Assembly (NCBI GenBank): GCA_025928935.1
Contig: JAICNB010000029.1
Span: 1 to 34,566, forward strand
Direction of reading: 5' to 3'
Source: Acidimicrobiia bacterium
GTDB lineage: Bacteria > Actinomycetota > Acidimicrobiia > Spongiisociales > ZC4RG35
DNA: 34,566 bases
A program made the translations under genes and the position numbers. This document shows positions 3,882 through 34,566 of this stretch, piece by piece. Position 1 is the stretch's first letter. Every line of letters begins with the position of its first letter. The notes under the pieces are model-generated. The model saw only the letters and a program-made list of their open reading frames with translations, had not been told where the DNA came from and did not search any database.

Positions 3882-5141
3882 ATGGTCATGATGAGCAGCG
3901 ATGCCCCGGTAGGGGTCATGGCCGGGGACCGCTTGTTGACTGGCGTCCGCATCACCGGGTTCCGGACCTTGAGAGAGGCCAGCTTCCGCCCCGGACACGT
4001 TTCCGCGCTCGTCGGGGAACCAGGAACCGGGAAGTCGAACCTCCTCGCCGCGATCCGGACAGCCCTCGACCCAGAAGCGGCCCCGCCGGCACCCCGAGAC
4101 GTCGCTAGAGCCACCGCCCCACCAATCAAGATCGAGGTCGAGACTGTAGGAGGTGCCTCGTGCACCCTGGAAGCCGATCCGCCGACGATGTCCCGGGGCG
4201 CACACGGCGATCTGCCCCCTGTCCTTTACCTCCCTGCCCACCTTCGCTCTACACGGATCGTCGAGAGCCACGCCTCGGCCGCCCCGGAGGCCGAGGCTGC
4301 GAGCCGGCTGTTCCGCGAGGCCGTCCGCCGGGATGGCGCCCCGGACCAAGATCTGGAGTACCCGCCGGGTACGGCCGAAGCGGCCCACGGGCTGATCGCC
4401 GCCCTGGAAGCATGGCAACGAGTCGAGTTGGCCGGGCTGGTCGTCCTCATCGAAGAGCCCGAGCTCTACCTGCCCCCACAGTCCCAGAGGTACCTGTACC
4501 GGTTGGTGCGCGGATTGGGGGAGGCGGGCAACCAGATCCTCTACTCCACCCACTCCCCCAGCTTCCTCAACGTGGCCCGTCTTCACGAGCTGGTCCTCAC
4601 CGAACATGACCCGACGGTGGGCACACGACTCTTCCAACCCGAGCCCCTCCCCACCGACAGCGAGTTCCGGGCCTACTCCGAGTTCGACGCCACCCGCAGC
4701 GAGCTGTTCATGGGCCGGGCCGCCATCCTCGTCGAAGGCCAGACCGAGCGACTCGCTCTCCCCTTCGTCTTCCGGACCCTGGGATACGACCCCGACCGGG
4801 AGCGGATCTCCATCATCGAATGCGGCGGAAAGCCCAACATCCCACTCATCGCCCAAGTGGCGAAGGCGGTCGGGGTTCCGTTCGTCGCCGTCCACGACCG
4901 CGATGCCCCCAGTGGCGGGAGACCCATTCAGGCAGAACAGCGGCTCAACCGTCTGATCGGCGAGATCGCCGGTCCCAACCGGGTCGAGCTCACGCCCGAT
5001 TTCGAAGGGGTCGCCGGGCTCCGGGGGCGCAAGAACAAGCCGGCCCGGGCGTGGAACAGCTTCTCTAGCCTCCGACCCGAAGAGGTACCCGCACCGCTGG
5101 CCCGGATCGTCCACATGGCAGTGGCCCAAGCCCGAACCTGA
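3882..5141 (+). CDS. OLD-family ATPase with TOPRIM nuclease domain (compact)
   Basis: The 419-residue protein has the order seen in OLD (overcoming lysogenization defect) nucleases. An ABC-type N-terminal strand is followed by Walker A GEPGTGKSN (45-53), Walker B VVLIEEPE (187-194), and the H-loop STHS (222-225). A C-terminal TOPRIM domain has E285 in 'ILVEGQTE', a glycine-rich 'ECGGKPN' turn (313-319) and the DxD pair D339/D341 in 'VHDRD'. OLD proteins are ATP-regulated DNA nucleases often found in phage-defence loci; class 1 members act alone. At 419 residues it is shorter than typical single-protein members (about 550-650), and the ABC signature (LSxGE-like) is not visible before Walker B: that region reads 'PPGTAEAAHGLIAALE'. 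ATG 3882 lies 25 bp from the att-like repeat and lacks a Shine-Dalgarno. ATG 3918, with GGGG just upstream, is an alternative start. Confidence 0.8.
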   Translation: MVMMSSDAPVGVMAGDRLLTGVRITGFRTLREASFRPGHVSALVGEPGTGKSNLLAAIRTALDPEAAPPAPRDVARATAPPIKIEVETVGGASCTLEADPPTMSRGAHGDLPPVLYLPAHLRSTRIVESHASAAPEAEAASRLFREAVRRDGAPDQDLEYPPGTAEAAHGLIAALEAWQRVELAGLVVLIEEPELYLPPQSQRYLYRLVRGLGEAGNQILYSTHSPSFLNVARLHELVLTEHDPTVGTRLFQPEPLPTDSEFRAYSEFDATRSELFMGRAAILVEGQTERLALPFVFRTLGYDPDRERISIIECGGKPNIPLIAQVAKAVGVPFVAVHDRDAPSGGRPIQAEQRLNRLIGEIAGPNRVELTPDFEGVAGLRGRKNKPARAWNSFSSLRPEEVPAPLARIVHMAVAQART

Positions 5142-6439: not shown

Positions 6440-6484
6440 GGGTGGAGCTGAGGGGATTTGAACCCCTGACCCCTTGACTGCCAG
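6440..6484 (-). repeat. tRNA-Ala 3' half, proximal att-like repeat
   Basis: This is the functional tRNA-Ala(GGC) from the anticodon loop to the discriminator plus CC and one flanking base. It matches 3814-3857 with four mismatches and one single-base gap, in the same orientation, 2.6 kb away. Confidence 0.7.
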
Positions 6485-6516
6485 TCAAGTGCTCTGCCAG
6501 GCTGAGCTACAGCCCC
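6443..6516 (-). tRNA. tRNA-Ala(GGC)
   Basis: It folds into a full cloverleaf: acceptor GGGGCTG with CAGCTCC, D stem GCTC/GAGC, anticodon stem CTTGA/TCAAG with loop CTGGCAG (anticodon GGC, reading GCC), T arm AGGGG-TTCAAAT-CCCCT, discriminator A73. The G3-U70 wobble pair, the main alanine identity element, is present. CC but not CCA is encoded at 6442-6441. TAAAAT at 6537-6532, 15 nt upstream of the 5' end, is a reasonable -10 box. The gene lies 49 bp downstream of rsfS on the same strand and forms one boundary of the islet. Confidence 0.97.
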
Positions 6517-27105: not shown

Positions 27106-28398
27106 CTACGCGTCGGACGTGAGCAGCTCCCGCGCCTCACCGACCAGGTACAGCGACCCCGCCACCAGCACCGCGCCAGCAGGTCCGGCTTCGGCGCGGG
27201 CCATGTCGATGGCGAGGTCCACGCCCTCCGCCTCGAGGACGGGCACGTCGACGAGATCACGGACTCGCTTGGCGAGATCGGATGGTGACACCGCCCTCTC
27301 CGAGTGGGGTGCGGTGGTGATCACGCCGGATATCAGCGGCCGCAGGCTGTCCACCATCGCTTCGACGTTCTTGTCACCCATGACACCGAGGACGAGCTGC
27401 CACCTGGTGGTCGGGTATTCCTCCTCCAGGGACTCGGCCAGGGCGACGACCCCGTCGGCGTTGTGGGCGCCGTCCAACATGATCTGGGGATGTTTGCCCA
27501 ATACTTCCATCCGGCCAGGCACGGTCGCCGCCGCCACAGCCTCCCGCACCGCGTCCTCGTCCAGCTTCCTCCCCAGCAACGCCTCGGATGCGGCCACCGC
27601 GTTGGCCAGGTTGACCAACTGGTATCTGCCGTGGAGGGGGAGGAAGAGGTCTTCGTAGGTCTCCTCGGCGCCGGCGATGCTGACCATCCACCCCCCCACC
27701 CCACGCTCGGCATCGAGCACAGAGAAGTCCTTGCCGTAGTGGCGATGATGGATGCCCAGGTCCTTCGACCGGGTGTAGGCGACTTCGAGCGCGGCGTCGG
27801 GCAACGGCCCGGTCACGAGGATCGAGTTGGGGCCGGCGATGGCGAGCTTCTCCCCGGCGATCGTGGCCACGTCTTCACCCAGGTATTCGGTGTGCTCGAT
27901 CCCGATGCTGGTGAGGACGCAGACCTCGGCGTCGACAACGTTGGTCGCATCGAGTCGGCCCCCGAGACCAACCTCCAGCACTGCTGCATTCACCGCCTGG
28001 TCCGCGAAGAAGGCGAAGGCGGCTGCCGTAGTCAACTCGAAATAGGTGTTGGGGTCGGCACCGGCCCGCACGCGCAGGTCGGCGAAGGCGGCCACATCCG
28101 AGACCGCAAGGGCGAACTCTTCTTCGGTGGCGAACCTGCCGTTGATCGAAAGCCTCTCCTCGACCTTCTGCAGATGGGGCGAGATGTAAGTGCCTGCATT
28201 GAGCCCGTGGGCGACGAGGAGCAAAGTGGCGAAGCGGGACGTCGAAGTCTTTCCGTTGGTGCCGGCGACATGGATCAGCGGGTATCCCTGATCGGGCCGG
28301 CCCATGTCCTCGAGGAGAGCCTCCATGCGCTCGAGGCCGGGCTTGATCCCGTGAGCGATGTGCTGATCCAGGTAGGCGATGGCCTCGGGGTAGTCCAT
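27106..28398 (-). CDS. folC: Folylpolyglutamate / dihydrofolate synthase
   Basis: FolC adds glutamate to (dihydro)folates in the cytoplasm. The 430-residue product has the Mur-ligase-like layout: P-loop GTNGKTS (46-52), 'YISPHLQKVEERLSINGR'-type signature (about 74-91), 'VLEVGLGGRLDATNVV', 'SIGIEHTEYLGEDVATIAGEK' and 'LDGAHNADGVVAL' in the C-terminal domain. Length is normal. A 12-bp terminator hairpin just before its ATG isolates it from the upstream LPXTG gene; its own promoter is not evident. ndk follows by 22 bp. Confidence 0.96.
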   Translation of the reverse strand: MDYPEAIAYLDQHIAHGIKPGLERMEALLEDMGRPDQGYPLIHVAGTNGKTSTSRFATLLLVAHGLNAGTYISPHLQKVEERLSINGRFATEEEFALAVSDVAAFADLRVRAGADPNTYFELTTAAAFAFFADQAVNAAVLEVGLGGRLDATNVVDAEVCVLTSIGIEHTEYLGEDVATIAGEKLAIAGPNSILVTGPLPDAALEVAYTRSKDLGIHHRHYGKDFSVLDAERGVGGWMVSIAGAEETYEDLFLPLHGRYQLVNLANAVAASEALLGRKLDEDAVREAVAAATVPGRMEVLGKHPQIMLDGAHNADGVVALAESLEEEYPTTRWQLVLGVMGDKNVEAMVDSLRPLISGVITTAPHSERAVSPSDLAKRVRDLVDVPVLEAEGVDLAIDMARAEAGPAGAVLVAGSLYLVGEARELLTSDA

Positions 28399-28449: not shown

Positions 28450-29418
28450 TCAGCTGCTCTCGGCCTCATCCTCCTTGCTGGCCACCACCAGCAAGGTGCC
28501 GAGGGAGAGGATCGCAACGGCGACCATGATCAGGGCACCGCTGTCGATACCCGTGAACGGCAGCTGCTCGACGCCCTCGACCTCGTCCGTCGGGGGCGGA
28601 GGAGGCGGGGTGATGACCACACCCAAGACTTGATCAGGATCGGCGCAGATCCCCCCGGGTCCCGGGTAGGTGACCGTCGCGGTGACTGTCGGGTTCACCT
28701 CGAAGACCACGGTGATGGTCCCTCTTGCCCACAGATAACCGTCATCGCTCGGCACCCAGGCGCCGTCCACCTGGATCCATCCCGGCCAGTCCTTCGGGTT
28801 GTCGTTGGCCCCAGGCCAGAGGACCCTGCCCGACATAGGCATGTTCTCGTGGACGACATCGGGCCCGTCGGGGTTGACAAAGGTGATCCTGGCCGACAGA
28901 CCCCCCTCGAAGGTGAGGGCATAACTCAGGTAGGGGACATCAGCGACACACTGGGACTCTGACCCGGTGACCACCAGGATCGGGGCGGCGATCCCGGCAA
29001 GGGTGGTCGTCGTCGAGGTAGTGGTCGTGGTGCTGATCGTCGTGCTGCTCGTGGTAGACGTCGTGCTGCTCGTGGTAGACGTCGTGCTGCTCGTGGTGGA
29101 CGTGGTGCTGGTAGTGGTTGTGCACTTGTCGTCATGACCATCGCTGCCACCCTGGACATAGGCGACGTCTTCGCACTCGTTGTCATCGTCATCGCAGTCG
29201 TCCTTGCCACCGGTCTTCCCGTCATGACCGGCGGGACACTGCCCACCGTCCTCGCCCTGGTAGTCCTTGTCCCCTCCGTCATGGCCGTCGCCGGTGGTCT
29301 CGTACCCGGTGGTCGCATTCGCTTGACCCGCCAGGACCAAGGAGAGAGACCAGAGCAACATCGAAGCCACCATGAGCGCGGCGAGGACGCGACCCCCTTT
29401 TTGCACGCTGAACCGCAT
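28450..29418 (-). CDS. LPXTG-anchored surface protein with Thr/Ser stalk (protein 1)
   Basis: The 322-residue product has a signal peptide (1-35, cut likely after ANA). A Gly/Asp/His-rich acidic region with several Cys (about 36-98) is followed by a Thr/Ser stalk (about 99-140, units of TSTTSST). A beta-rich domain (about 145-265, 'YLSYALTFEGGLSARITFVN') and a Pro run lead to the sorting signal: LPFTG (286-290), hydrophobic helix, and tail SKEDEAESS. The tail is acidic rather than the usual Arg/Lys-rich, which is odd. Sortase substrates are covalently attached to peptidoglycan; no sortase gene is in the window. ATG 29418 has AAGGGA upstream; GTG 29421 is an alternative. The family of the beta domain is not recognised. 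Its leader carries a structured RNA shared with protein 2. Confidence 0.85.
   Translation of the reverse strand: MRFSVQKGGRVLAALMVASMLLWSLSLVLAGQANATTGYETTGDGHDGGDKDYQGEDGGQCPAGHDGKTGGKDDCDDDDNECEDVAYVQGGSDGHDDKCTTTTSTTSTTSSTTSTTSSTTSTTSSTTISTTTTTSTTTTLAGIAAPILVVTGSESQCVADVPYLSYALTFEGGLSARITFVNPDGPDVVHENMPMSGRVLWPGANDNPKDWPGWIQVDGAWVPSDDGYLWARGTITVVFEVNPTVTATVTYPGPGGICADPDQVLGVVITPPPPPPTDEVEGVEQLPFTGIDSGALIMVAVAILSLGTLLVVASKEDEAESS
29041..29103. repeat. Three 21-bp tandem repeats encoding the Thr/Ser stalk
   Basis: CGTGCTGCTCGTGGTAGACG-T is repeated at 29041, 29062 and 29083, the third copy with one substitution. Being a multiple of three, the unit can vary in number without breaking the frame. 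Confidence 0.9.
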
Positions 29419-29450
29419 CACACCCGTCCCTTCATCGCGCGTTGGAACAG

Positions 29451-29517
29451 GCCGGTCTCACCACTGGCTACCCCATGACCCTGGTGACCGCCTTATGGGT
29501 CCGGGGTCTTCGCCTCC
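29451..29517 (-). ncRNA. Structured leader element 1 (pseudoknotted) before LPXTG gene 1
   Basis: Minus-strand order: GGAGGCG (29517-29511), then stem ACCCC (29507-29503) / GGGGT (29474-29470) stacked with GACCC (29501-29497) / GGGTC (29481-29477). The 15-nt loop contains GGTCACC (29489-29483). After the stem comes AGCC, whose GCC can pair with GGC of GGAGGCG. Then GGTGA (29462-29458) complements loop bases TCACC, making a pseudoknot extended by GG/CC. A CCCTCC-TTCG-GGAGGG hairpin lies 15 nt upstream (29533-29548). The element ends about 33 nt before the start codon. A second copy with compensatory changes lies at 30688-30750. Confidence 0.65.
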
Positions 29518-29679
29518 CTATTCCCCTGTCGACCCTCCCGAAGGAGGGCCGAGCGCCACCATAACGGTCTCGGGTTACACGACGGTGTCGCGCGCGAGAG
29601 TTTCCCCAAATGCGCTAGTCCCCCCCCGAAAGAGGAAGGAGGGTCAGGCCCGATTCCCGGGGCCAACCACCCCAACTGA

Positions 29680-29711
29680 GGAGAGACCGGGCGCACCCAC
29701 CCGGTCTCTCC
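29680..29711 (-). terminator. Terminator hairpin after LPXTG gene 2
   Basis: GGAGAGACCGGG (29680-29691) and CCCGGTCTCTCC (29700-29711) form a perfect 12-bp stem with an 8-nt loop, 9 bp after the stop codon at 29721. No T tract follows, as is common in high-GC genomes. Confidence 0.75.
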
Positions 29712-29720
29712 CCCGGCAGG

Positions 29721-30659
29721 TCAGGCAGTCTCGTCCCTCCTCGCACCCACGATCAGCACAATCCCAAGCGACGTCAGGCCACCGGCCAGCCATGCCCAGT
29801 GGGCACCCACACCGGTGAAGGGCAAAACCTCCACGACTGGGTCGGTGACAGCGTCCGGATCGCTCACCGACGTCGGGGGGGTCGTCACGACGACAGGGAG
29901 CACCTCATCGGGCACTGTTGGCCTGGTAGGCGAAGTGGGTGTCGTCGGTGTCGTCGGTGTCGTCGGTGTCGTCGGTGTCGTCGGCGTCGTCGGTGTCGTG
30001 TCGTCCGGGCACTCGAGGCGGTTGGTCACCGTCACCTGGAAGTGGTCGTCCCCCACTTCCACCGGAACACCTACGACCGTTTCGTACTCACAGCCTTCGG
30101 GTAGCCCGGCGACATTCTCCGAGACCAACACGGGAAACTCGCCGGCGGGGTACTCGATCACCTCGCCTGAGTCGACGACAAAGGGATCGCCGTCACCAAA
30201 TCGGACAGTGAACGTCACCGTGACCCCGTCGGGTAGCTCATCGCCCACCCATTGCTTGACGAAGCTGCCGTTGTAGATCTCGGGCTCAGGCTCCTCGACC
30301 GGCTCGATGATGATGTGCGAAATCGCCTTCTTCATGTCGACAGTGCGACCGTTTGGATAGGCCACTTCCTGTCCGGCCTTGGCACAGACGATGATCCATC
30401 CCTCCGGGACGGTGATCCTGTCGGCTTCTCCGTCTTCATCGAGGACAATGTCGAGCGCGATTCCGGGATCAGAAGGTTCCCATCGACCCTCATCGACGTC
30501 GTATTTGTATTGCCCCTCGGCGATCGGGCAGACCCCCGGCCCACCCGATTCCTGCCCGCTCGCTGCGGCCACCGTCGGCAGCAGGGCCGCCGCCAGGGCG
30601 AAGAGAACTGTCACAAATCCAACGCGCCGCATCAAACCTGGGCGCTGTCGGATCGGCAT
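29721..30659 (-). CDS. LPXTG-anchored surface protein with TTP stalk (protein 2)
   Basis: The 312-residue product has a signal peptide (about 1-33, cut near VAAASG). A unique N-terminal domain (about 40-115, 'ADRITVPEGWIIVCAKAGQEV') is followed by a beta-sandwich-like domain (about 128-216, 'YNGSFVKQWVGDELPDG', 'VTVTFTVRFGDGDPF') resembling Cna-B/DUF5979-type repeats of surface proteins. A TTP-repeat stalk (about 218-245) leads to the sorting signal LPFTG (279-283), a helix and the basic tail GARRDETA. It would be wall-anchored by a sortase not encoded here. A strong GGAGGT site precedes ATG 30659. Protein 1 follows on the same strand after a terminator, with a homologous leader RNA, so the two are probably co-regulated but separately transcribed. 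Confidence 0.85.
   Translation of the reverse strand: MPIRQRPGLMRRVGFVTVLFALAAALLPTVAAASGQESGGPGVCPIAEGQYKYDVDEGRWEPSDPGIALDIVLDEDGEADRITVPEGWIIVCAKAGQEVAYPNGRTVDMKKAISHIIIEPVEEPEPEIYNGSFVKQWVGDELPDGVTVTFTVRFGDGDPFVVDSGEVIEYPAGEFPVLVSENVAGLPEGCEYETVVGVPVEVGDDHFQVTVTNRLECPDDTTPTTPTTPTTPTTPTTPTTPTSPTRPTVPDEVLPVVVTTPPTSVSDPDAVTDPVVEVLPFTGVGAHWAWLAGGLTSLGIVLIVGARRDETA
29941..29994. repeat. Six 9-bp repeats encoding the TTP stalk
   Basis: GTCGTCGGT is repeated six times from 29941 (the fifth unit ends GGC). The unit keeps frame and encodes a Thr-Thr-Pro unit on the minus strand; length variation between strains is likely. Confidence 0.9.
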
Positions 30660-30687
30660 CTCTACCTCCTTCGATCAGGGAGAGGCC

Positions 30688-30750
30688 GGGCTCACTATTG
30701 GCTCCTCCCGACCCGAGTGACCGCTACAAAGGTCGGGATTCGACGCCTCC
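30688..30750 (-). ncRNA. Structured leader element 2 (pseudoknotted) before LPXTG gene 2
   Basis: Same architecture as element 1: GGAGGCG (30750-30744), 8-bp stem TCCCGACC (30738-30731) / GGTCGGGA (30713-30706), 17-nt loop containing GGTCACT (30722-30716), then GCC (30702-30700) able to pair with the GGC of GGAGGCG. Finally AGTGA (30696-30692) complements loop TCACT, with GG/CC extending it. Where element 1 has a C-G pair in the pseudoknot (CACC/GGTG), element 2 has U-A (CACT/AGTG), a compensatory change. The main stem differs in sequence but pairs in both. A GGTGG-GTTG-CCACC hairpin precedes it. The element ends about 28 nt before the start codon. I recognise no named riboswitch class. Confidence 0.65.
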
Positions 30751-30892
30751 TGGCTCCGCGGGTGGCAACCCACCATTGCCGTTCTCAATATCGGACAACC
30801 GTCGACGGATGAGTAGAGGCTTGATGCCCGACACTCCCGGGGCAAATGGCAGTTCTCGGGGGGCCCCGGCTAAGGGTGGAGGAACGAGCTGT

Positions 30893-32155
30893 TCAGGCGG
30901 ATTTCTCCGCGGGCCCATCCACTTCGCGCGCCGGGACCAGAGTCGGGTTGACCTTCTCGGCAACCACGTCGCGATCGATGACGACTCTCTCCACATCGGT
31001 GCGGGACGGGAGGTCGTACATGGTGTTGAGGAGGACTTCCTCGAGGATCGCCCTTAGGCCGCGGGCACCAGTGCCTCGCTTGATCGCCTGGGCGGCGATC
31101 GCTTCCAGCGAGTCCTCGGCGAAGACCAGTTCCACATCGTCCATCTCGAACATGCGGGCGTACTGACGGGTGAGAGCGTTCTTCGGCTCGGTCAGGATCC
31201 TGACCAGGGCGTCCATGTCCAGGTCTTCGACCGTCGCCATCACGGGGAGACGACCGATGAACTCGGGGATGAGGCCGTACTTCATCAGGTCCTCGGGCAT
31301 CACCTGATTGAGCAGATCGGACGGTCTGCCGTCGGCCTTGCCCCGCACCTCCGCTCCGAAACCAACCCCGCGTCGCCCGACCCTGTTGGCGATGATGTCC
31401 TCGAGACCCCCGAATGCGCCGGCGCAGATGAAGAGGATGTTGGTGGTGTCGAGCTGGATGAACTCCTGATGGGGATGCTTGCGCCCGCCCTGGGGTGGCA
31501 CCGAGGCGACCGTGCCCTCCAGGATCTTGAGAAGCGCCTGTTGGACCCCCTCCCCGGAGACGTCTCGGGTGATCGACGGGTTCTCGGCTTTGCGTGACAC
31601 CTTGTCGATCTCGTCGATGTAGATGATCCCTTGCTGGGCGCGGTTCACGTCGTAGTCGGCGGCCTGGAGCAGCTTGAGGAGGATGTTCTCCACGTCCTCG
31701 CCTACATAACCGGCCTCGGTCAGGCTGGTGGCATCGGCGATGGCGAAGGGAACGTTGAGCTGCCGGGCGAGCGTCTGGGCGAGGAGGGTCTTCCCCGACC
31801 CGGTGGGCCCGATGAGCAGGATGTTCGACTTCTGTAGCTCGACGTCGCGCTGGGCTTCGCCACTGCGGATCCGCTTGTAGTGGTTGTAGACCGCCACGGA
31901 GAGCTTCTTCTTGGCGTCCTCCTGGCCGACCACGTAGTCGTCGAGATACGAGTTGATCTCGACCGGTTTGGGGAGCTCGGTGAAGGTGATCTCTTCTGTG
32001 GCGGAGAACTCCTCCTCGATGATCTCGTTGCAGAGATCTATGCACTCGTCGCAGATGTAGACGCCGGGTCCGGCAATGAGTTTCTTGACCTGCTTCTGAG
32101 ACTTTCCACAGAAGCTGCACTTGAGCAGCTCCCCACCATCACCGAGTCGTGCCAT
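30893..32155 (-). CDS. clpX: ATP-dependent Clp protease ATP-binding subunit ClpX
   Basis: ClpX unfolds substrates and feeds them to ClpP. The 420-residue product has the N-terminal zinc-binding domain C13/C16/C35/C38 ('CSFCGK', 'CDEC'), Walker A GPTGSGKT (116-123), Walker [10 protein letters not shown] (177-185), a ClpP-docking loop reading VGF in '[10 protein letters not shown]' (the usual is IGF), and the C-terminal '[16 protein letters not shown]'. AGGAGG lies 11 nt before ATG 32155. It follows clpP by 15 bp; tig-clpP-clpX form one unit. Confidence 0.97.
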
Positions 32156-34276: not shown

Positions 34277-34351
34277 GGTGACCGACGGGATTCGAACCCG
34301 CGACGTCCTGGACCACAACCAGGTGCTCTACCGGGCTGAGCTACGGCCACC
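34277..34351 (-). tRNA. tRNA-His(GTG)
   Basis: Acceptor GTGGCCG pairs with CGGTCAC; the anticodon loop is TTGTGGT (GTG) on stem CCTGG/CCAGG, and the T arm reads GCGGG-TTCGAAT-CCCGT. The extra G-1 (34351) opposite C73 (34277), the histidine identity pair, is encoded. CCA is not encoded. Confidence 0.97.
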
Positions 34352-34376
34352 ATGTCTCGAATGAGCCCTTTCCTTG

Positions 34377-34450
34377 CGCCCCCGGGAGGACTCGAACCCC
34401 CAACCTGCGGATTAGAAGTCCGCCGCTCTATCCAGTTGAGCTACAGGGGC
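34377..34450 (-). tRNA. tRNA-Arg(TCT)
   Basis: Acceptor GCCCCTG pairs with CGGGGGC (one T-G wobble); the anticodon loop CTTCTAA (TCT, reading AGA) is on stem GCGGA/TCCGC; the T arm is GGGGG-TTCGAGT-CCTCC; discriminator G73. It lies 25 bp upstream of tRNA-His on the same strand. Confidence 0.96.
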
Positions 34451-34494
34451 CCTCGACCGAGGCCCTTCGGAGCCCGCCAGGATCGACCCATTCG

Positions 34495-34566
<72 letters not shown>

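Follow-up and report, generated by a model that had tools for sequence, protein, structure and literature searches.

The leaders of two neighbouring genes for LPXTG-type surface proteins each contain an aptamer that belongs to an already catalogued Rfam family of the c-di-GMP-II clan, namely RF03170 (c-di-GMP-II-GCG) and RF03169 (c-di-GMP-II-GAG), within a 34,566-nucleotide stretch of a contig from an uncultured Acidimicrobiia bacterium (the window, meaning the whole stretch analysed). In the reading that we consider probable, both are riboswitches of c-di-GMP-II type that would turn on translation of wall-anchored proteins in response to a ligand made by a GGDEF protein, most likely c-di-GMP. 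A preliminary description of this DNA had recognised a pseudoknotted cis-regulatory RNA, probably a riboswitch, in front of the two genes, which is borne out by the Rfam matches and by covariation, but had regarded it as unnamed and as fitting no riboswitch class, having compared c-di-GMP-I and cobalamin cores only. The Rfam scan that it had proposed as a check placed both elements in known classes and removed the novelty; what is new here is two further members of already known variant families.

Two c-di-GMP-II-type aptamers between clpX and folC

In Rfam cmscan searches, the GCG model matched positions 30675-30759 over its full length (model positions 1-85) with 62.3 bits, above its gathering threshold of 47.9 bits, and the GAG model matched positions 29441-29526 (model positions 1-86) with 58.2 bits, above its threshold of 40 bits. 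The window-wide E-values were 2.9e-9 for 30759..30675 and 3.3e-9 for 29526..29441. These were the only two places matched by RF03170 or RF03169 in the 3.08 Mb assembly, and no c-di-GMP-I or cobalamin riboswitch match was obtained from Rfam at either leader with E-values up to 1. The sequence blocks previously said to be shared by both leaders are present on the minus strand, where the two aptamers are 66.3% identical over 86 columns; the elements are real, with Rfam extents slightly longer than the approximately 65 nt first proposed. On this strand the order of features is clpX, GCG aptamer, LPFTG gene, hairpin, GAG aptamer, second LPFTG gene and folC, as follows:

30893..32155 (-): clpX, the conserved upstream neighbour of the aptamer-LPXTG unit
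30675..30759 (-): c-di-GMP-II-GCG aptamer (RF03170); pocket positions C37 = 30723, G69 = 30691, C70 = 30690
30675..30685 (-): P1 3' strand in the GCG aptamer (Rfam structure), with the Shine-Dalgarno region as alternative partner (alternative fold)
30664..30671 (-): Shine-Dalgarno sequence AAGGAGGT of the first surface-protein gene
29721..30659 (-): LPFTG surface protein of 312 aa behind the GCG aptamer (open reading frame with C-terminal LPFTG and hydrophobic tail)
29677..29712 (-): perfect hairpin of 15 bp and very high stability (-31.4 kcal/mol, z -6.5) that follows the first surface-protein gene and has no U tract
29441..29526 (-): c-di-GMP-II-GAG aptamer (RF03169); pocket positions C37 = 29490, G69 = 29457, A70 = 29456
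29441..29451 (-): P1 3' strand in the GAG aptamer, with the sequence CCUGUUCC, whose partner is GGAAUAGG of P1 or GGGACGGG at the Shine-Dalgarno region
29423..29432 (-): Shine-Dalgarno region AAGGGACGGG of the second surface-protein gene
28450..29421 (-): LPFTG surface protein behind the GAG aptamer (323 aa from GTG; 322 from ATG at 29418)
27106..28398 (-): folC, the conserved downstream neighbour of the aptamer-LPXTG unit

The hairpin at 29677-29712 probably separates the two aptamer-gene units and is perhaps an actinobacterial terminator; it was not scored as an intrinsic terminator in the terminator scan. A sigma-70 promoter scan, uninformative for this organism, returned no site. Three tRNA genes lie in a row at window positions 34277-34565 (-), upstream of tig-clpP-clpX, and one further tRNA is found at 6443-6516.

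The GCG copy shares with RF03170 the pocket signature G69, C70, G73 and the position in the leader, and departs from it in a loop-to-tail pair that is U-A and not C-G (CACU/AGUG), a difference that leaves its membership unaffected. Likewise, the GAG copy carries the G69, A70 and G73 of RF03169 and is typical except for a one-base bulge in P3. In Paraclostridium, tandem c-di-GMP-II riboswitches precede surface-anchor genes (PMC9481103); aptamers of c-di-GMP-II type are thus found with surface-anchored proteins in both systems, with several aptamers before one gene in Paraclostridium and one aptamer per gene in the window.

Covariation of the RNA structure

The Rfam helices and the loop-to-tail pseudoknot were scored in an alignment of 28 related leaders, mostly from Actinomycetota, in which the architecture of the clan (P1, GGC/GCC helix, P3 and loop-to-tail pseudoknot) was recovered with covariation. 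Over helices and pseudoknot 81.9% of the cells were paired (97.8% in the pseudoknot) and 20 of the 30 pairs of the whole structure showed changes on both sides. The covariation score of 0.340, against 0.145 after shuffling and at most 0.10 after sliding, upholds the earlier proposal of selection on RNA structure. The main stem, P3, does consist of different bases in the two copies and yet pairs in each, as had been described, and all eight of its pairs changed on both sides among the 28 leaders. The compensatory change reported in the loop-to-tail pairing, CACC/GGUG to CACU/AGUG, also falls within this set, column pair 51-76 being C-G in 25 leaders and U-A in three. Further homologues with covariation, for which a search had been recommended, do exist and favour a conserved structure. 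Minimum free energy was dropped as evidence of structure, being significant for neither aptamer (z 0.46 and -1.25 relative to shuffles); because folding energy was no lower than in shuffles, the structural case rests on covariation and family membership.

Composition of the ligand pocket

The ligand contacts in the canonical c-di-GMP-II riboswitch structure (RF01786; PDB 3Q3Z) are A13, A14, U37, G39, U60, A61, C68, A69, A70, C71, C72, G73 and A74 (PMC7288161). From position 37 onward, the numbering of the GCG aptamer is identical to that of 3Q3Z. For the register we relied on what we take to be the sequence of 3Q3Z; at 13 of 13 positions it has the letter given in the table of contacts. Fold and pocket positions of the window copies are those of the canonical aptamer, with A13, G39, A61, C71, C72 and G73 retained and with A14G, U37C, U60C, C68A and A69G as differences, to which one copy only adds A70C. 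Instead of the canonical pocket letters U37, A69 and A70, both copies therefore carry C37 and G69, and one carries C70. Between the two copies, 12 of the 13 contact letters are common, the sole difference being A70 in GAG versus C70 in GCG. In our own reading of the Rfam names, GAG and GCG are the letters at positions 69, 70 and 73.

In the set of covariance model R1 (132 aptamers, 123 of them distinct, from 99 sources; R1 E-values are rough), the letters at these three positions were GAG in 82 aptamers, AAG in 34, GCG in 8, ACG in 6 and GAT in 2, counts of related sequences that do not equal independent events. Positions 37 and 69, neither of which is paired in the model, covaried without exception among the 123 distinct sequences (C-G in 83, U-A in 39), and the A69G change behind "GAG" is thus a pair swap compensated by U37C. 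Covariation was also observed in this set between positions 40 and 68 (U-A 103, G-C 10, A-U 2), and mutual information found no partner for position 70. C70 occurred on both 37-69 backgrounds, in seven families, and aptamers with A69 and with G69 were both present in three families. Positions G38, G39, C71 and C72 were invariant, and A61 and G73 nearly so.

The combination A69, C70, G73 (ACG) is a fourth pocket type, for which Rfam has no named type (L095, L096, L097, L100, L113 and L123); in several families ACG aptamers precede pilin-like or LPXTG genes. The leaders of two divergent gene pairs differ in pocket type, AAG being paired with GAG in one (L103:3211-3294 and 4288-4373) and with ACG in the other (L113:3589-3673 and 3922-4007).

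GGDEF proteins and the candidate ligand

RF03169 matched 119 of the 396 genomes of an actinobacterial phylum sample, and a GGDEF protein was present in 357 and absent from 39. All 119 aptamer-bearing genomes, compared by eye, were among the 357 with GGDEF (119/119; hypergeometric 3.7e-7, ignoring kinship), a co-occurrence for which kinship between the genomes and their size are partly responsible. Within the family to which the window belongs, the 18 aptamer-bearing genomes all had a GGDEF match (18/18), which in 12 of them was a single, low-scoring match of REC-GGDDF type (checked in an alignment for four genomes, and from score and reading frame for the others), and the sole genus of this family without GGDEF (g239, six genomes) has no aptamer either. 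In one genome with three aptamers (G528; L212, L213 and L238) the only GGDEF match is degenerate and without the motif. G528 yielded no ortholog of the REC-GGDDF protein, two of its congeners have single GGDEF matches of that type, and incomplete assembly may be the cause of this gap.

A single GGDEF protein was detected in the genome under study, a PleD-like REC-GGDDF response regulator encoded outside the window (L004:1111-2040; G000:C21), in a gene that adjoins rpe and ribD. Its GGDDF, ND and RGD motifs are invariant across the order, and the protein is identical in a congener (L056); we take it to lack the Asp typical of hybrid enzymes. No EAL match was obtained in this genome. One DAC protein is present, and c-di-AMP was considered as ligand, with DAC surveyed in this genome, and set aside, as nothing else points that way.

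Judged by these comparisons of sequences and genomes, the likeliest ligand would be c-di-GMP or another GGDEF product. A GGDEF product is favoured over an unrelated signal because A69G is compensated by U37C and because every aptamer-bearing genome of the phylum sample contains GGDEF. No report on the ligand of the GAG and GCG variants was found in the accessible literature, which merely lists both families; Weinberg, describing the variants in 2017, reportedly suggested that they might sense other signalling molecules. The locus is a natural pair for the ligand question, with paralogous genes in the same cell, one differing contact position and one detectable GGDEF enzyme.

A candidate translational switch

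The distance from aptamer to start codon is 15 nt in one leader and 22 nt in the other, and no terminator-like site was detected in these 15-22 nt. Pairing of P1 and pairing at the Shine-Dalgarno region exclude each other because the same P1 3' strand serves both. Over 89 leaders, the P1 3' strand paired with its own Shine-Dalgarno region at a mean of -10.81 kcal/mol, compared with -8.45 (sd 0.24) when partners were swapped, and none of 5000 permutations was as low; at the clpX-folC locus alone the values were -12.70 and -10.53, again with 0/5000. Control strands from P3 and coding sequence showed no comparable excess of Shine-Dalgarno pairing, and the pairing was weaker with shuffled P1 strands (Wilcoxon 1e-8 with leaders as units, uncorrected for kinship). 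The duplex of the GAG copy, at -15.2 kcal/mol, was the best among the 89 regions (p 0.013 versus shuffled). That of the GCG copy was -8.9 kcal/mol and weak when this copy is taken alone (own versus shuffled p 0.41); in the free fold predicted for this copy the start codon is covered as well, and the Shine-Dalgarno accessibility computed for it showed no ON-direction difference between bound and unbound states. At the level of the family, the predicted switch between the two pairings has statistical support, and for the GAG copy the case is strong. Since the complementarity goes beyond swap and shuffle controls, it implies a ligand-ON translational switch, and such control would be the simplest reading.

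In the absence of ligand, the P1 3' strand would pair with the Shine-Dalgarno region and translation would be blocked. Binding of a cyclic dinucleotide from a GGDEF protein, with c-di-GMP as the likeliest candidate, in the pseudoknot pocket would close P1, free the Shine-Dalgarno region and allow the wall-anchored protein to be made. The REC-GGDDF protein, as the sole GGDEF protein detected, would be the putative cyclase providing the ligand in this cell.

Alternative ligands and modes of control

Against c-di-GMP as the signal speak the contact-position changes in both variants (A69G with U37C, and in GCG also A70C), the GGDDF instead of GGDEF motif, the lack of an EAL match and the degenerate GGDEF match of G528. 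The GAG or GCG aptamers, or both, might have some other cyclic dinucleotide as ligand, such as cGAMP or a further product of GGDEF proteins, with the neighbouring genes answering different signals, and there is precedent in the homologous c-di-GMP-I aptamers, which pocket changes turned to c-AMP-GMP (PMC9481103, PMC7266159). A70C is moreover an uncompensated change of a ligand contact, recurring in at least seven families on two backgrounds, and it is at position 70 only that the pockets of the window copies differ. However, the 37-69 swap preserves the pair and need not alter the ligand, C70 aptamers precede the same kind of secreted proteins, and no more than a single GGDEF and a single DAC protein were detected in the genome, the former presumably not of the hybrid type. 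We consider a different dinucleotide unlikely on balance, and are more doubtful still of the specific version in which GAG senses c-di-GMP and GCG, via A70C alone at an orthologous locus, another cyclic dinucleotide from the REC-GGDDF cyclase, which would give two signals in one cell.

Riboswitches of the c-di-GMP-II class exist with both polarities, and the accessibility computed for the GCG copy would also allow the leaders to be OFF switches or to act via transcription instead of translation. The family-wide complementarity between P1 3' strand and Shine-Dalgarno region and the lack of a terminator-like site before the start codons argue otherwise, making this too an improbable alternative. 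A Shine-Dalgarno hairpin alone could suffice for an RNA thermometer, and ligand binding is here a prediction; nevertheless, the conservation of the full c-di-GMP-II pocket architecture and the co-occurrence of the aptamers with GGDEF render a thermometer, or a protein-binding leader without small-molecule ligand, very improbable.

Surface proteins and history of the locus

The two surface proteins resemble each other solely over about 81 aa at the C-terminus, where 37% of residues are identical (E 8e-6), in agreement with the initial observation that the coding sequences are not recent duplicates. No Pfam or NCBIfam family was assigned to the first (29721..30659); the second (28450..29421), with an Asp/Cys-rich N-terminus and a Thr/Ser-rich stalk, had a weak mucin-like low-complexity match only and no useful family in either database. 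Short repeats at window positions 29937-29999 and 29030-29109 code for Thr-Pro-Thr and Ser-Thr-Thr stalks of these proteins.

Proteins encoded downstream of related aptamers are secreted and often carry LPXTG. Conservation of the arrangement clpX-[aptamer-LPXTG]-folC extends through the order, with one to three aptamer-LPXTG units in between; among the loci retrieved from this order, clpX was the direct upstream neighbour of an aptamer at 24, and folC followed at many. Within the genus, one genome (G515) retains the GCG unit only, with an ortholog of the first surface-protein gene that is ~80% identical and has a broken frame in that assembly, and another (G516) only a GAG unit, with a protein 42% identical to that of the second gene. 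The remaining typed units at the clpX-folC locus are all GAG except one GAT, and the GCG type therefore looks derived within this genus. Returning to the GCG unit of the congener: This congeneric ortholog of the first gene (L198:7387-8327) is divided between two frames, through a frameshift or an assembly error.
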